Shown: positions 1 to 34,845 of the stretch, piece by piece
Position numbering within the stretch: the first letter of the stretch is position 1
How the letters are laid out: the number at the start of each line of letters is the position of its first letter
Assembly: GCA_017533605.1 (NCBI GenBank)
Contig: JAFWKF010000002.1
Coordinates: 1-62,650, forward strand
DNA: 62,650 bases
Direction of reading: 5' to 3'
DNA from: Candidatus Saccharimonadota bacterium
Lineage (GTDB): Bacteria > Patescibacteriota > Saccharimonadia > Saccharimonadales > Saccharimonadaceae
Program-made: the position numbers and the translations under genes
Notes under the pieces: generated by a model
Told to the model about the DNA's origin: nothing
Seen by the model: only the letters and a program-made list of their open reading frames with translations
Database searches by the model: none

Positions 1-129
1 CCGCCCGTCAAACCATGAGAGTCACCAACACCCGAAGTCCGTCTCGGCGGCCTAAGGTGGGGGAGATGATTGGGGTTAAGTCGTAACAAGGCATCCGTAC
101 GAGAACGTGTGGATGGATTACCTCCTTTC
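1..129 (+). rRNA. rrs: 16S ribosomal RNA, 3' end (partial)
   Basis: This is the last ~130 nt of 16S rRNA; the gene begins outside the window. Universal 3' segments are visible: the AAGTCGTAACAAGG block at 79-92, helix 45 at about 92-117, and the anti-Shine-Dalgarno core CCTCC at 121-125. Two differences from E. coli are visible: the helix 45 tetraloop reads AGAA rather than GGAA, and the tail reads GGATTACCTCC rather than GGATCACCTCC. The adenines that KsgA dimethylates are kept. The exact 3' end is uncertain by a few bases. A terminator, not a tRNA or 23S gene, follows. Confidence 0.97.
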
Positions 130-290
130 TTGAGAAGGAAACGATGCTTATGAATCCCGCGAGGGACACATAATGCTAGGTCGGTTACGGTTATGATTAA
201 GAGCTTAAATCATAACAGCTCTGGTTTAACCAGACGTAACGTTAAGCTTTACGCTGAAAGATGAAAATTGCACAACTAAGTTGTTAAAAA
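130..290 (+). other. 16S 3' trailer with hairpin
   Basis: This stretch between the mature 16S end and the terminator has no convincing ORF. It contains an imperfect palindrome at 190-215 (GTTATGATT pairing with AATCATAAC) and short inverted repeats around TTAAGCTT. It would be the trailer of pre-16S. The processing stem it may form with the 16S leader cannot be checked because the leader is outside the window. Confidence 0.6.
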
Positions 291-321
291 GGTCCACTCC
301 GTAAGGAGTGGATTTTTGTTT
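291..321 (+). terminator. Rho-independent terminator after 16S
   Basis: TCCACTCC and GGAGTGGA (293-300 and 305-312) form an 8-bp stem with a 4-nt loop, followed by TTTTTGTTT. It ends the rRNA transcript before any 23S gene. Confidence 0.9.
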
Positions 322-337
322 AGTTGCCCTTATGCTA

Positions 338-346
338 TGCTATAAT
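338..346 (+). promoter_or_regulatory. Extended -10 promoter for the gene at 425
   Basis: TGCTATAAT is an extended -10 element (TGnTATAAT). No good -35 hexamer is visible. It leaves a leader of roughly 75 nt before the start codon at 425. Confidence 0.6.
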
Positions 347-424
347 ATGATTAAGCTTAGTGAGGGGATAAGATTAGACCTGTTTAAAGCGACTGGTAGT
401 TCTTTAAGAATGGAGGTGTTATAA

Positions 425-775
425 ATGGAGACTGAAGGAAATCTTTACAATATCGTAGATGGGCCTGATAGAGATGCACTGTTTGATGCATGTAAATATG
501 CGTATGATTATTGCTCTTTTATCTCGGTGGAATTCAAAGTGGCAATAGGTTTGCCGCCACGACTGGGCGGGTCTTATGAGGCGATGAAAATTAAGGATAT
601 TCGGATTTCTAGGGTAGGCCATGAAAATGGCAGCGATGTAGGTTTAAACCTTGAAGGTACTTGCAAAGCTGATTTAAATCCACATAGCCCGGTTGCGCCG
701 GAGTGGCGTAATTATAAGTTTAAAGCATATTACAATGCTAAACGTAAGACAGGGTTTATCTCATTTTTCGAGTAA
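425..775 (+). CDS. Hypothetical protein, 116 aa
   Basis: I do not recognise this family. The start ATG at 425 is preceded by GGAGG at 412-416 (8 nt spacing), a good ribosome binding site. The product is a small soluble protein with mixed charge and no signal peptide, membrane segment or repeat. It stands alone between the rRNA terminator and its own terminator at 799-823, with its own extended -10 promoter, so it is a single-gene unit. The strong RBS and flanking signals argue that it is real; the function is unknown. Confidence 0.75.
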   Translation: METEGNLYNIVDGPDRDALFDACKYAYDYCSFISVEFKVAIGLPPRLGGSYEAMKIKDIRISRVGHENGSDVGLNLEGTCKADLNPHSPVAPEWRNYKFKAYYNAKRKTGFISFFE

Positions 776-798
776 GCCTATAGCTTACCTCCTCCTTA

Positions 799-823
799 AC
801 CCAGGCCTAAAGCCTGGGTTTTT
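799..823 (+). terminator. Terminator of the gene at 425
   Basis: CCCAGGC and GCCTGGG form a 7-bp stem with a 5-nt loop, followed by TTTTT. Confidence 0.9.
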
Positions 824-828
824 AGATG

Positions 829-858
829 AAAAAATCCCCCTAGGAGGTTAGGGGGATT
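829..858 (-). terminator. Terminator of the minus-strand gene at 880
   Basis: AATCCCCCTA and TAGGGGGATT (833-842 and 849-858) form a 10-bp stem. On the minus strand the stem is followed by TTTTTT (829-834), so it stops the leftward transcript. It lies back to back with the plus-strand terminator. Confidence 0.88.
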
Positions 859-879
859 AGAGGGGTGGTGATACCAAAG

Positions 880-1551
880 CTAAAAGAGGCTTTGGTCTTG
901 TTTTGCTTTTCTATCGCATTCCGAAAGAATGTCGATTAGTTTCATAGTCTTCATCGCTATTGCGTAGCTTCTCTTATCTCCGTCGTAGAACGCAAGGAGA
1001 TCCTCGTAAAACTCTCTGCGATGATTGACTGGTGTACCATCTGGGGTTTTTTCGATACACCAAGTGGTGAGAGGAAACTGATAGCCGTAAATAATGGCCA
1101 CAATTTCTCTGGCGAGAATATCATCGAGTTTCTGGCGAAGCCAAAAGCCTGTAACGAATGCAGACAGAGCCGCAGCACCGATATCGTCGTTGGTACCGTA
1201 ATTATACTTTTTGCCGATACCCGACAAGACAGCAAATTTGATAGCCAGTTCTTGGCCAATATCTGCATTGATGAGGTTTTCTGCGACCATATCTACGTGG
1301 TCTAGTAAATCTTCGTTGTATCTCTTGAGTTCTGGTGCTATTCTTTTGCCATATAAACTGATAAAAAGCGGTTCGTTGCGATTACCTAAGAATTTGTAGA
1401 TAGTTTCGGTATTTGCGGGTGGTACTTCGCAAATACTTCGAAAATACTTAAGTTGCTTTTCAGGCATGCCGGCCTTTAATAAAAGGTCGAAATTGCCTTG
1501 CCAGACCTGGAATAACGATAGGTTACTGAAATAAACTGACAGACTTTCCAT
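880..1551 (-). CDS. Hypothetical protein, 223 aa
   Basis: No family is recognised. It appears to be a soluble, mainly helical protein with no signal peptide or membrane segment. A central stretch (about residues 95-135) rich in Gly and Ala looks like a buried helical core. The start is supported by AAGGAGGG about 5 nt upstream (plus 1557-1564), and a CATAAT box lies further upstream (plus 1593-1598). It is monocistronic, with its own terminator at 829-858. The function is unknown. Confidence 0.72.
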   Translation of the reverse strand: MESLSVYFSNLSLFQVWQGNFDLLLKAGMPEKQLKYFRSICEVPPANTETIYKFLGNRNEPLFISLYGKRIAPELKRYNEDLLDHVDMVAENLINADIGQELAIKFAVLSGIGKKYNYGTNDDIGAAALSAFVTGFWLRQKLDDILAREIVAIIYGYQFPLTTWCIEKTPDGTPVNHRREFYEDLLAFYDGDKRSYAIAMKTMKLIDILSECDRKAKQDQSLF

Positions 1552-1632
1552 TTTTACCCTCCTTAATGTACTTTAGAAAACTAACTGGCTTTATTATGCC
1601 ATACCTTGGGTAAAATATCCAGCATAAGGGGT

Positions 1633-1974
1633 TTAACGCTTGTCGCCTTCGCCGTGAATTTGATTGCGCTTGTAGCGGCTTTCTAATTTGGCGATGTTTG
1701 CGGTGGCGACATCAGAGAGGGAAATATTTAGATAGCGAGAAATAGAAGCGATATACCAGAGAGTATCGCCGAGTTCCTTAGTGATTAAATCTTTGTCTTC
1801 GCTTGAGATGATGCCGTCTTTGTCACGGAGGATTTTTTTGATTTTGTCGGCAGTTTCGCCGGCTTCGCCGACTAGGCCGAGAACTTTTTCAATAAAGCCG
1901 ACGGCTTTTAAATCTGTAGTGGCTTCTGATAAATCGTATTTGGCAGCCTTTTTTTGATAGTCGTTAAAATTCAT
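1633..1974 (-). CDS. MazG-like nucleotide pyrophosphohydrolase
   Basis: This is a 113-aa protein of the all-alpha NTP pyrophosphatase (MazG-like) superfamily. These enzymes hydrolyse NTPs or dNTPs to monophosphate and pyrophosphate and act as housecleaning enzymes. The metal-binding helices are visible: GEAGE (about residues 36-40) and KELGDTLWY (about 66-74), which form the EEXX...EXXD metal site. The length fits the single-domain form. AGGAGG lies just upstream. Its -10 box shares an 18-bp palindrome (1995-2012) with the divergent SpoU gene. Substrate preference cannot be read from sequence. Confidence 0.85.
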   Translation of the reverse strand: MNFNDYQKKAAKYDLSEATTDLKAVGFIEKVLGLVGEAGETADKIKKILRDKDGIISSEDKDLITKELGDTLWYIASISRYLNISLSDVATANIAKLESRYKRNQIHGEGDKR

Positions 1975-1994
1975 TGTACCTCCTGATTAAAATA

Positions 1995-2012
1995 ATTATA
2001 TCATGATATAAT
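1995..2012. promoter_or_regulatory. Palindrome made of two divergent -10 boxes
   Basis: ATTATATCATGATATAAT is a perfect 18-bp palindrome. Its right half is TATAAT for the SpoU gene (2007-2012, ATG 6 nt later). Its left half is TATAAT on the minus strand (2000-1995) for the MazG gene, which has a normal leader and AGGAGG. Two polymerases could hardly bind at once. Confidence 0.75.
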
Positions 2013-2018
2013 ACAGAT

Positions 2019-2540
2019 ATGGAAGACACGCGGAACCTGATTGACGAGTATAAGGGCATGGCAAACGAAGAGGTTTTTCGTGAGCTCTCTAAGAAGCGGA
2101 GTCCTTTAGAGATTGCGATAGAGAACGTGGAACATGATTTTAATATTGGGTCAATTGTGAGGACCGCAAATTCTTTTAACGTGGCGAAAGTGCATATTAT
2201 TGGGAAGAAAAAATACAATCGTAGAGGTGCGATGTGTACGGATAAATATCTTGAGATTGTGCATCATGACACGATAGAAGAGTTTTTGAAGACTCAGGCG
2301 GGTAGAGAGCTGGTGGCAATAGAGAATAATACCGAGCGAGCGAAGCCATTTGGCGAGAAGAAATTTGCTAAAAACACTACTTTGATATTTGGGTCTGAGA
2401 ATAATGGAATAACGGCTGAACTGTTAGAAAAGGCCGGAGATGTGAGATTTATAGAGAGTTTTGGATCTACTCGTTCAGTTAATGTGGGTGTAGCCGCAGG
2501 GATTGCTATGTATGGGTATATCAAGCAAATCGTTCTCTAA
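2019..2540 (+). CDS. SpoU/TrmH-family RNA 2'-O-methyltransferase
   Basis: This 173-aa SPOUT-class enzyme would transfer methyl from S-adenosylmethionine to a ribose 2'-OH of rRNA or tRNA. The three SpoU motifs are present: NIGSIVRTA at 42-50 (catalytic Arg48), the knot motif GSENNG at 125-130, and SVNVGVAAGI at 153-162, which completes the trefoil knot. There is no N-terminal RNA-binding extension, so it resembles the minimal TrmH/TrmL-like form. The start is leaderless: TATAAT at 2007-2012, then 6 nt, then ATG. Its 3' end overlaps the deacetylase gene, so the two are probably cotranscribed. The target nucleotide is unknown. Confidence 0.88.
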   Translation: MEDTRNLIDEYKGMANEEVFRELSKKRSPLEIAIENVEHDFNIGSIVRTANSFNVAKVHIIGKKKYNRRGAMCTDKYLEIVHHDTIEEFLKTQAGRELVAIENNTERAKPFGEKKFAKNTTLIFGSENNGITAELLEKAGDVRFIESFGSTRSVNVGVAAGIAMYGYIKQIVL

Positions 2541-3354
2541 GAAGCCGGTAAGGGAAGAGTCGGCACTAACGGCGACTTTAAGGCGGATTGATATCCGTTT
2601 TCCGTGGTTAAAGATTGTGGGGGTGGTGGTTTTGGGGCTAATTGTAATTATGGATCTTTTTGGGTTAACGATTTCTAGGATAGGTGATCCTGGGGATAAG
2701 ATTAGTATTGCGCCGATGGCTAGGCATGTAAAGATTACAGAGAGGGTGCTTGAGGGGAAGAAACTGGTGGCGCTGACTTTTGACGATGGGCCTTCGGCGG
2801 AGACTACACCGGTTTTGCTTAATACTTTGCGTGAGAGAGATGTGCCAGCGACATTTTTTATGTTGGGAAGTAGGGCGAGGAATAATCCTGATATCGTGAA
2901 AAAAGTAAAGGAAGAGGGGCACGAGGTGGCGAGCCACACGATGTACCATCAGAATTTAATTAGAATTCCAGCTTCGGCGGCGGCAGCGGACATAGACGAG
3001 GCGAAGGGAATATTAAAGAGTATTTTGGGGCAGGATGTGAGTTTGACACGGACGCCATATGGGAATGTAAATGATACGGTAAGGGGGTTTGTGGGGACGC
3101 CGATTATTCTGTGGTCTGTAGATACGCTGGACTGGAAGATTAAAAATACTGATTCAATCGTAGGCATTACGATGAGCGAGGTGAGTGATGGAGCGATTAT
3201 TCTGATGCACGATATTCACCCGACTTCGGTAGAAGCTGTGCCGAGGCTGGTTGACACACTCAGAGATGCGGGGTATGAGTTTGTGACGGTGTCTGAGATG
3301 GCAGAGATGCATGGAATTAAACTCGCGAACGGTGTTTCTTATTATAGTTTGTAG
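2512..3354 (+). CDS. Membrane-anchored polysaccharide deacetylase (NodB domain)
   Basis: This would N-deacetylate cell-wall glycan (peptidoglycan GlcNAc/MurNAc or another surface polymer) outside the cell. From the ATG at 2512 there is a short basic cytoplasmic tail, one membrane segment (about 32-54) and a NodB domain. Catalytic motifs are visible: TFDDGPS (89-95) with the metal-binding Asp pair, SHTMYH (141-146) with two metal His, RTPYGN (180-185), WSVDTLDW (201-208) and LMHDIH (231-236). I chose ATG 2512 because CAGGG lies 10 nt upstream; the in-frame TTG at 2503 is worse placed. It overlaps the SpoU gene by 29 nt. Such deacetylation commonly gives lysozyme resistance; that role here is inference. 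Confidence 0.9.
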   Translation: MGISSKSFSKKPVREESALTATLRRIDIRFPWLKIVGVVVLGLIVIMDLFGLTISRIGDPGDKISIAPMARHVKITERVLEGKKLVALTFDDGPSAETTPVLLNTLRERDVPATFFMLGSRARNNPDIVKKVKEEGHEVASHTMYHQNLIRIPASAAAADIDEAKGILKSILGQDVSLTRTPYGNVNDTVRGFVGTPIILWSVDTLDWKIKNTDSIVGITMSEVSDGAIILMHDIHPTSVEAVPRLVDTLRDAGYEFVTVSEMAEMHGIKLANGVSYYSL

Positions 3355-3399
3355 TCGTAGTTTTGACTTTTTAACACTTTTTTGATATGATTTCCTTAT

Positions 3400-3476
3400 G
3401 GGGTAATAGCTCAGCTGATTAGAGCGCTGCCTTTGCAAGGCAGAGGTCCTGGGTTTGAGTCCCAGTTACTCCACCA
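3400..3476 (+). tRNA. tRNA-Ala (UGC)
   Basis: A full cloverleaf. The acceptor arm GGGGTAA pairs with TTACTCC, the anticodon loop CTTTGCAAG carries TGC, the T loop is TTTGAGT, and the 3' CCA is encoded. It is followed after 12 nt by tRNA-Ile, presumably in one transcript. Confidence 0.96.
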
Positions 3477-3488
3477 AATTAATAACTT

Positions 3489-3565
3489 GGGGTTATAGCT
3501 CAGTTGGTTAGAGCGCGTCACTGATAATGACGAGGTCTGTGGTTCAAGTCCACATAACCCCACCA
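3489..3565 (+). tRNA. tRNA-Ile (GAU)
   Basis: A full cloverleaf. The acceptor arm GGGGTTA pairs with TAACCCC, the anticodon is GAT in CTGATAATG, and CCA is encoded. Ala-UGC and Ile-GAU are the two tRNAs that in many bacteria sit in the 16S-23S spacer. Here they are neighbours but 3.3 kb from the 16S gene, with no 23S nearby. Confidence 0.96.
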
Positions 3566-32468: not shown

Positions 32469-33443
32469 TTAGCCTCTAGGTGGTTCGCCGTCTGGTTCGC
32501 CGAGGAGTTTTTTGGACTTAATTTCGTAGCGGCGACCATTAACTGGTGAGATGTAGTAGTCTTCATTTAATAAATTGACGAATGTAGTTAAATCTTTGTC
32601 GTCCATGATGATAATGGAGCCATCATCATCAGTCATGAGATCTAGTTGCATTTCGTCGGCGTAATCTATAAGTTTATCCTGTGGCATTTCTTTAGTAATA
32701 TCCATGGCTTGGACTTTTTTGAGAGCTGGTTTTTTATCGGCAAGAAGGGAATCTAGAGTAAGACCTTCGGCAAAGGAGAGCTTGTATTTTTCGGTGAGTT
32801 CTTTAGCTTTGGCCTCGGCGATAACTTGGGATTTGTAATCGTACTGGAAGAGATTTTCAAATTTAGCTTGGTTAAAGACAATGATGTTGCCATCAACAAT
32901 AGCTACTTGATTATCGTCTGGCATTTTAAGGGCTACTTCGGCGCTGAAGGGCTCAAAGCTTTCGCCATTAATTTCCCAAGACGAAGCACCTTTGAGAGCA
33001 GAGGAGGCAGGTAAGAGTTTTGCGATATAAAAAGCTTTGGTACCAGCATCACCGCCTGGGTAGGTGAATTTGGCGATAATACCTTTGACTTTCTTAAAAT
33101 CATATTCGTTTTCTGAGAAATAGTCGATGTCTTTATACTCATTTTCAATCAGGTGGATGAGGGTTTCGGCTCGGCCGACTTTAGAAAGGGAAGTGCGGTA
33201 GATAACTTTATCTTCGCCGTCAGATTTCTCGTATTCACGGCATTCTAGGCCCTTGTCGGCCTCCGCGATAATATATTTGACTGCTTCTTGCATAAACATT
33301 GATTTAACTGCGCCTGTGAGCTTGTCAGAATACTTAATCTTAAAAGGGGTGTAGTTTTTGTTAAAAAGGAAAAGTTCGGCGCTGACATTGTTTTTGACTT
33401 CATCAACCTCGTTTGCCCATAGGAATACATCAAATTCTTTCAT
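32469..33443 (-). CDS. DUF4868 (KwaB-like) protein
   Basis: A 324-aa soluble protein that I place in DUF4868 from the pattern of FNKNYTPFKIKY near 26-37, AVKYIIAEADKGLECREYE near 52-70, KKVKGIIAKF near 116, and DYADEMQLDLMTDDDGSIIIMDDKDL near 262-287. This DUF includes KwaB of the Kiwa anti-phage system. KwaA, the small membrane partner, is not seen beside it, so this would be a solo homologue. The start is ATG 33443 with GGAGG 6 nt upstream; the upstream in-frame ATG overlaps that site. The family call is from memory of motifs and not certain. Confidence 0.55.
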   Translation of the reverse strand: MKEFDVFLWANEVDEVKNNVSAELFLFNKNYTPFKIKYSDKLTGAVKSMFMQEAVKYIIAEADKGLECREYEKSDGEDKVIYRTSLSKVGRAETLIHLIENEYKDIDYFSENEYDFKKVKGIIAKFTYPGGDAGTKAFYIAKLLPASSALKGASSWEINGESFEPFSAEVALKMPDDNQVAIVDGNIIVFNQAKFENLFQYDYKSQVIAEAKAKELTEKYKLSFAEGLTLDSLLADKKPALKKVQAMDITKEMPQDKLIDYADEMQLDLMTDDDGSIIIMDDKDLTTFVNLLNEDYYISPVNGRRYEIKSKKLLGEPDGEPPRG

Positions 33444-33455
33444 TAATACCTCCAT

Positions 33456-33609: not shown

Positions 33610-33638
33610 TTGCATTTTTGGAAAAAATATACTACACT
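33610..33638 (+). promoter_or_regulatory. Promoter of the pre-rsmH structured RNA
   Basis: TTGCAT (33610-33615), 17-nt spacer, TACACT (33633-33638). It would start transcription near 33645, ~50 nt before the long helix. Confidence 0.6.
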
Positions 33639-33644
33639 CAAATC

Positions 33645-33949
33645 AGCGATAAATCATACAAAAACGCTAAACAAAAAGTCGTACATTAAAATCAGTTTGA
33701 GATCGGCCAACTAGGAGTTTCGGCGCGCATTAAAAGATAGCGAGATGCGTCAAAAAAATCGTGCGTTCCTTCTCTAAACACACCTCCCAATAAAACTCTA
33801 TATGGTCTAAAACCAACACACAATAAGTCTCTCAACGGCTGCGATATGAGATTAGCTTCGCGCTGGTAAATCGTGGTGGATTATATTGTGTTAAACAAAA
33901 ACCGAAGCAAAAACAAAACCGCTGAAGTTTCTAGTTGGCTGGTCTCAAG
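33645..33949 (+). ncRNA. Candidate structured RNA upstream of rsmH (30-position closing helix)
   Basis: The segment 33696-33725 pairs along its whole length with 33920-33949: 23 Watson-Crick and 7 G-U pairs, no mismatch or bulge. All seven departures from perfect complementarity are G-U compatible, which points to pairing at RNA level rather than a DNA inverted repeat. The enclosed 194 nt hold smaller helices, for example ACACAATA (33818-33825) with TATTGTGT (33884-33891), and GCGCAT with ATGCGT near 33724-33750. No ORF of note is inside. The right arm also carries the -35 box of rsmH. I could not match it to tmRNA, RNase P, SRP or 6S RNA. It could be a stand-alone RNA or a cis-acting leader of the division cluster. 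Confidence 0.6.
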
Positions 33950-33963
33950 CGAGAGTGTATAAT
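33935..33963 (+). promoter_or_regulatory. Promoter of rsmH (leaderless)
   Basis: TTGGCT (33935-33940), 17-nt spacer, TATAAT (33958-33963), then 6 nt and the ATG at 33970. Confidence 0.78.
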
Positions 33964-33969
33964 AGTAAT

Positions 33970-34845
33970 ATGGAGAAACTACATATTCCAGTGTTATTAT
34001 CGGAAGTTCTAGCAACTTTGGAACCGCATCCCGGTGACAAGTATTTAGATTTGACCGCCGGCTACGGAGGACATGCTAGCAAGATTTTGGATGTGACACA
34101 GAACTATAAGGATTCTTGCCTCGTGGATCGTGATGAATTTGCGATTTCTTATTTGAAAACCAAATTTCCATCCGAAACCGAGATAAAGCACGAAAATTTT
34201 TATAGCGCTATGTTGCAACTGATTGAGTGTGGAAAAACTTACGATATCGTTTTAGCTGATTTTGGAGTTTCTTCACCGCAGCTAGATAGGGAAGAAAGAG
34301 GGTTTTCGTTTAGATACGATGCACCACTTGATATGCGTATGGATCGGCGACAAGAATTAACAGCAGATACAGTAGTTAATAAGTACAGTGAACGCGATTT
34401 GGCAGATATTTTTATAAAATATGGCGAAGAGAGCCCAGGCAGGGCAGTAATGTTAGCCAGAATAATAGCACATCACCGTCCGATCAAAAGTACTATGGAA
34501 TTAGCAGAATTAATAAGAGCAAGATGGCACGGATACTCAAAAACCCATCCGGCAACGAAGATTTTTCAGGCGATTCGGGTCGAAGTTAATGATGAGCTAG
34601 GAGAAATCGGAAATGCCCTACCGCTACTTCCAAAACTATTAAATAAAGGTGGAAGAGTCGGTATTATTACTTTCCATAGTCTAGAAGATAGGTTGGTAAA
34701 GGATTATTTTAAAGAGATGGCAAGCCATGGGGAAGAGTCGGAACTTACAATTGTTACGAAGAAGCCTATCGTTGCAGATACACATGAATTAGTTATCAAC
34801 CCGCGAGCTAGGAGCGCCAAACTGCGAGTAGCTTTAAGGAATTGA
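33970..34845 (+). CDS. rsmH: 16S rRNA (cytosine-1402 N4)-methyltransferase RsmH
   Basis: An S-adenosylmethionine-dependent enzyme (291 aa) that methylates N4 of C1402 in the 16S P-site region. The SAM site is DLTAGYGGHA (about 22-31), DFGVSSPQLD lies near 95-104, GFSFRYDAPLDMRMD near 108-122, and the C-terminal TFHSLEDRLVKDYF near 232-245. rsmH classically opens the division/cell-wall cluster, as here, but mraZ is missing. Start ATG 33970; leaderless. Confidence 0.95.
   Translation: MEKLHIPVLLSEVLATLEPHPGDKYLDLTAGYGGHASKILDVTQNYKDSCLVDRDEFAISYLKTKFPSETEIKHENFYSAMLQLIECGKTYDIVLADFGVSSPQLDREERGFSFRYDAPLDMRMDRRQELTADTVVNKYSERDLADIFIKYGEESPGRAVMLARIIAHHRPIKSTMELAELIRARWHGYSKTHPATKIFQAIRVEVNDELGEIGNALPLLPKLLNKGGRVGIITFHSLEDRLVKDYFKEMASHGEESELTIVTKKPIVADTHELVINPRARSAKLRVALRN

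Follow-up and report, generated by a model that had tools for sequence, protein, structure and literature searches.

Related RNAs and leader structures

Structured RNAs that are nearly universal and present in single copy are few in bacteria, namely RNase P RNA, tmRNA, SRP RNA and 6S RNA. The boxA element, a signal of rRNA operons, is bound by NusB together with S10, and the methyltransferase RsmH (also known as MraW) modifies C1402 of 16S rRNA. Upstream of mraW, a conserved RNA structure, the mraW RNA motif (RF01746), has been described in Actinomycetales (Weinberg et al. 2010, PMC2864571). The C. diphtheriae copy, about 110 nt long, precedes the mapped mraW start site (PMC5784534). E. coli requires the leader-trailer helix of the 16S rRNA precursor to form active 30S subunits, and mutations in boxA come at a 2- to 3-fold cost (PMC10250234). 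The untranslated leader of E. coli suhB carries a boxA outside of the rRNA operons, and the regulation of this gene works via Rho (PMC5725501).

The Saccharibacteria RNA described here was found in a stretch of 62,650 bases, hereafter the window. It resembles the mraW RNA motif in being a conserved RNA structure directly in front of rsmH, but with 212 to 307 nt, a boxA-like site, a long closing helix and a pseudoknot it differs from the copy in C. diphtheriae. Furthermore, neither RF01746 nor any other Rfam model gave a match (cmscan) in the window region at E<=10 or in 20 diverse loci at E<=1. As it does not match the RF01746 covariance model, by which the two were compared, we do not file it as a member of that family; the shared position may reflect analogy or very distant homology. 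With the E. coli 16S precursor (PMC10250234) it shares a boxA in front of a long-range helix enclosing a structured untranslated RNA. However, the RNA is non-ribosomal, comprises only about 260 nt, lies beside rsmH in organisms in which Rho was not found, and its binding of NusB is predicted from the boxA-like motif. For the suhB leader, the excerpt of PMC5725501 contains no comparable structure conserved throughout a class.

Organization of the locus

The following features were assigned, all on the forward strand:

33610 to 33638, +, TTGCAT-17-TACACT (exact pattern), predicted as the RNA's own promoter
33645 to 33668, +, 5' leader hairpin P0 (AGCG 33645-33648, CGCT 33665-33668), beginning at the predicted transcription start
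33681 to 33692, +, boxA-like site GTACATTAAAAT (position-weight scan)
33695 to 33725, +, 5' arm of the closing helix P1 (helix computation, covariation)
33726 to 33749, +, hairpin P2 (CGCAT 33726-33730, ATGCG 33745-33749)
33740 to 33762, +, pseudoknot between the P2 loop (GCGA 33740-33743) and the segment after P2 (UCGU 33759-33762)
33780 to 33800, +, part 1 of the invariant core, unpaired, ACACCUCCCAAUAAAACUCUA, with CACCUC at 33781-33786
33818 to 33891, +, helix P4 (ACACAAUA 33818-33825, UAUUGUGU 33884-33891), enclosing P5 and P6 (MFE)
33824 to 33837, +, part 2 of the invariant core, UAAGUCUCUCAACG
33838 to 33877, +, helix P5 (33838-33845 with 33870-33877) and the variable apical hairpin P6
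33892 to 33919, +, A-rich linker, unpaired, UAAACAAAAACCGAAGCAAAAACAAAAC
33920 to 33950, +, 3' arm of P1 (helix computation, covariation)
33958 to 33963, +, TATAAT, the -10 of a leaderless promoter belonging to rsmH itself; nearly every genome of the window's genus has it
33970 to 34845, +, rsmH (mraW), 16S rRNA C1402 N4-methyltransferase family (PF01795, E 1.4e-85)

The promoter of the RNA had already been proposed in an earlier note made from the window sequence and was recovered at the same place, with a predicted start near 33645; TTGCNT and TAYACT or TAAACT are kept across most of the genus. The note also had the right arm of the helix overlapping the rsmH promoter. This applies only to a weak -35-like TTGGCT (33935) inside the arm, the spacing of which is not kept among relatives, while the TATAAT lies beyond the arm. 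A TATAAT-like -10 about 6 to 12 nt before the rsmH ATG exists in most of the window's family and is absent from most other families. In those families, where the start codon may directly follow P1, no -10 lies between RNA and rsmH, so the two must be transcribed together. By eye, no clear terminator was seen between the RNA and rsmH.

The divergent gene on the other side of the RNA (32469-33446, -) gave a match to PF16162 (E 4.4e-8), the Pfam family of KwaB-like proteins from the Kiwa defence system. At many genes of the window a TATAAT-like -10 is placed only 6 to 10 nt before the ATG and a Shine-Dalgarno sequence is missing (44809-, 27119-, 57435+, 59693+, 62292-, 31935+, 2019+, 33970+), while others carry GGAG. 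This arrangement of promoter and start codon suggests that leaderless mRNAs are widespread in the window.

The gene rsmH follows the RNA on the same strand at every one of 110 loci, and 5 of 5 extra loci, other orders included, show the same. The gene mraZ is located directly upstream in 84 of the 110 and in all 5 extra loci, so that the usual order is mraZ - boxA - RNA - rsmH. This constancy speaks for control in cis: as a leader of rsmH and the division and cell-wall (dcw) operon, the RNA would through its fold control read-through into rsmH or its translation, possibly after binding of RsmH, S10-NusB or a ribosomal component. Such a role, to which we give a serious but less than even chance, is also consistent with the missing rsmH promoter in most families outside that of the window and has a positional precedent in the mraW RNA motif. 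On the other hand, the spacing between RNA and rsmH ranges from about 0 to 300 nt and no common expression platform exists. In the window's family, moreover, the RNA has been retained even though the leaderless promoter behind it would circumvent it.

Structure and covariation

The earlier note had described a helix of 30 positions closed by Watson-Crick and G-U pairs only. Recomputation gave the same result for 33696-33725 (TTTGAGATCGGCCAACTAGGAGTTTCGGCG) and 33920-33949 (CGCTGAAGTTTCTAGTTGGCTGGTCTCAAG), namely 23 Watson-Crick and 7 G-U pairs with zero mismatches; the uninterrupted run even comprises 31 pairs (33695-33725 with 33920-33950). No other helix of the window comes close to P1: the runner-up has 20 pairs, and when the window was simulated 12 times with a first-order Markov model, the longest helices had 17 to 21. 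Fold stability of the + strand was clearly higher than expected (z = -5.44, attained by 0 of 200 shuffles), compared to z = -2.05 for the - strand.

Selection on RNA pairing, also claimed in the note, was confirmed by the relatives. Among 94 diverse copies, aligned by fitting to a covariance model, which favours the structure somewhat, double-sided changes were found in 45 of 45 modelled pairs, and 93.1% of cells were paired, compared to 71.5% in shuffled alignments and at most 47.5% when partners were slid. The covariation score reached 0.433 (0.176 in shuffles), and none of five measures was attained by any of 500 shuffles. A MAFFT alignment within the genus, fitted to no structure, still exhibited compensatory changes in 19 of the 45 pairs. 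A lack of covariation in relatives had been set beforehand as a refuting outcome, but the covariation turned out to be overwhelming; the region is therefore an RNA structure under selection.

Double-sided changes in the 94 copies affect all pairs of P2 (5/5), P5 (8/8) and P6 (3/3). P4, which has no separate score, co-varies by eye among relatives (e.g. CUUUUUAAGA/UCUUAAAAGG in locus L019 and CUAUA/UAUAG in L018). P0 and the pseudoknot lie outside of the covariance model and were both tested by partner permutation. The strands of P0 switch jointly within the genus (AGCG/CGCT, GTGG/CCAC, GTAGAT/ATCTAC), and 0 of 300 permutations were as good. For the pseudoknot, 72 distinct complementary strand pairs were detected; at least 4 bp can form in 93% of the copies, whereas 60 permutations of the partners never gave more than 80%, and the mean score is 11.72 (best permutation 10.19). 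The P5 region of L079, as well as of L076 and L066, holds CACCACAACAACTCCAT, which is near-identical to the 5' coding end of the L079 rsmH gene.

These results also bear on the idea that the element is a DNA operator for MraZ and not an RNA at all. The frequent position of mraZ directly upstream (84/110 loci) and a TGGGA in the complement of the core would fit an operator. Compensatory changes and G-U pairs, however, are signatures of RNA, and MraZ is missing in 24 of 24 tested genomes of the window's genus, 23 of which keep the element. For this genus, in which MraZ was not found, the operator is refuted, and in general we consider it scarcely credible.

Distribution and novelty

By nucleotide search, 23 of 24 members of the window's genus contain the element. 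A covariance model built from 22 genus copies (R1) recovered it from 165 of 198 genomes in the order, and another one based on 33 diverse copies (R2) from 377 of 393 Saccharimonadia genomes, representing 143 of 150 genera, nearly always in single copy. E-values of these models are rough and the genomes are mostly metagenome-assembled. The RNA typically comprises about 250 to 300 bases. In other classes of Patescibacteria the R2 search yielded only short matches of at most 28 bits, which were treated as noise. Weak antisense matches of up to 45 bits were excluded, as they come from the near-palindromic P1. Among the matches listed for core fragments (at least 80 records from bacterial and archaeal genomes), every informative name is that of Saccharibacteria/TM7 or Patescibacteria, while others are named simply 'bacterium'.

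Occurrence as one copy per genome, near-universality in the clade and an invariant unpaired core are features shared with RNase P RNA, tmRNA, 6S RNA and SRP RNA, whose models nevertheless do not match. RNase P RNA and tmRNA in particular are excluded, as RF00010 and RF00023 gave no match at the locus and both RNAs are encoded as separate genes elsewhere in the window genome. Within the open-access literature we found no published description. The RNA is thus a previously uncatalogued structured RNA of the Saccharibacteria as a whole, and its near-universal conservation suggests that it is important.

Apart from RNase P RNA and tmRNA, Rfam models detected a SAM riboswitch, tRNAs and partial rRNAs in the window genome, but neither SRP RNA nor 6S RNA in its assembly (window and contigs L292-L319). 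A motif scan of this genome revealed SecA, but no proteins with DTAGR or GDTFR as expected of Ffh and FtsY. Possibly this organism has no SRP system, or its genes are in the unassembled part of the genome. The 3' end of the 16S rRNA (window 109-128; L155, L156, L157) is GGATTACCTCC in the window and in two further genomes from its order, whereas G491, a genome of another order, has GGATCACCTCC. At window positions 1-3565 this 3' end lies at the contig edge, followed by open reading frames and, about 3.3 kb on, tRNA-Ala and tRNA-Ile. The window contains no 23S rRNA gene; the ends of 23S and 5S rRNA are found on another contig (L300), which suggests that the rRNA genes are unlinked or that the assembly is interrupted.

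A boxA-like site, with no Rho found

In front of P1, the boxA-like sequence GYNCHTTAAMAA was present with at least 11 of 12 positions in 102 of 110 loci, compared to 23 of 550 shuffled sequences; four of its positions are invariant in all 102. It is a close variant of the gamma-proteobacterial consensus GYTCTTTAANA (PMC5725501). NusB is encoded in each of 16 sampled genomes of the class. The RNA-binding domain of Rho (PF07497), on the other hand, was found in 0 of these 16 Saccharibacteria genomes by a search that was positive in nine control genomes. Because Rho was not found, boxA cannot serve as a block against Rho here, unless a very divergent Rho exists.

The same result affects the explanation as a Rho-controlled attenuator, in which the C-rich and G-poor core would be the loading site of Rho and antitermination at boxA would set read-through into rsmH. 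The rut-like composition of the core and the boxA-like site would suit it, and the suhB leader, with boxA and Rho, offers a precedent (PMC5725501). With Rho not found, this attenuator is refuted, again barring a divergent Rho, and has very little probability left. As a positive control, the sequence upstream of 16S rRNA was scanned in three genomes with full 16S sequence; it revealed no clear boxA site, and the best scores were near noise.

The invariant core and its possible targets

The most conserved segment of the RNA is unpaired, a nearly invariant C/A-rich core of about 40 nt. CACCTC (CACCUC in the RNA) occurs in 94 of 94 diverse copies, ACACCTCCCAA/ACACCUCCCAA of part 1 in 91 and TAAGTCTCT/UAAGUCUCU of part 2 in 86. 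In many other genera the core reads ACACCUCCCAAAAAACUCCACCUCACACAUAAGUCUCUCA. The linker motif CAAAAACAAA is present in 68 of the 94 copies. A small open reading frame in the core was ruled out: copies differ by 3, 4 and 6 bases in the length of the A-run that separates the core motifs, and since such changes are not all multiples of three, the RNA is non-coding.

CACCUC resembles an anti-Shine-Dalgarno sequence, and the RNA might be a regulator pairing with ribosome-binding sites of mRNAs. Apart from the invariance of the motif, this could apply to the many non-first genes of the window with GGAG sites. Many other genes look leaderless, however, and the window genome shows no excess of GAGGTG (153 sites compared to 188 for the reversed control) or of GGGAGGTG (3 compared to 5 sites). 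We therefore regard pairing of this kind as unlikely. A guide-like pairing of the core with 16S or 23S rRNA revealed no consistent site of at least 9 nt in three genomes.

A special version of control in cis would be autoregulation by substrate mimicry, since the core ACACACCUCCC is similar to the target site of RsmH in 16S rRNA (ACACACCGCCC). The idea is attractive because RsmH is encoded by the neighbouring gene, and the best local 16S match of the core was the decoding site in 3 of 3 genomes, with 10 of 11 positions identical at ACACACC-CCC. This similarity is nevertheless weak and was noted post hoc: shuffled cores score as high in 28-50% of cases anywhere in 16S rRNA and in 3-5% at the decoding site.

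Proposed function

We favour, with about even confidence, an rRNA-like boxA-RNA gene predicted to yield a stable, probably trans-acting RNA. The gene is built like a miniature rRNA transcript, with a boxA leader site followed by the long-range 'leader-trailer' helix P1. The 31 bp of P1 enclose a compact fold of P2, pseudoknot and P4/P5/P6, presenting the unpaired core with CACCUC and the A-rich linker. By analogy to 16S rRNA, NusB-S10 bound to boxA may ride with the RNA polymerase and help the distant arms of P1 to meet. P1 might then shield the RNA or be cut from the mraZ-rsmH transcript, and the freed RNA would act in trans via its core, probably on the machinery of translation or ribosome assembly.

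It is conservation that suggests a function beyond that of an rsmH leader. Genomes of the window's genus have lost mraZ but retain the RNA with a conserved promoter of its own. The rsmH promoter downstream should have relaxed the conservation of a mere leader, which did not happen. Single copies in nearly all carrying genomes are also expected for a housekeeping RNA. Several points speak against this explanation. A purely trans-acting RNA might sometimes move, but this RNA is never found away from rsmH (115/115 loci). No clear terminator was seen by eye behind it, and it is part of the rsmH transcript wherever the rsmH promoter is missing. No consistent rRNA target was found, complementary sites are not enriched in the window genome, and the boxA analogy is not matched by a site that stands out upstream of 16S rRNA. 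Control of rsmH in cis thus is the main and close rival to an independent RNA.

Within the whole class, the RNA is about as widespread as the housekeeping RNAs, and its gene sits between genes for ribosome modification and cell division. With a boxA-like signal outside of rRNA and Rho not found, the role of the boxA complex as a chaperone, as opposed to its anti-Rho role, becomes directly testable. Cultured Saccharibacteria exist, so that expression and function of the RNA are open to test. More tentatively, it may be a class-defining and probably essential non-coding RNA of Saccharibacteria, made with NusB/S10 in cells lacking Rho and working with RsmH or the ribosome. If true, it would be a new kind of housekeeping RNA, produced in a cell-division operon.
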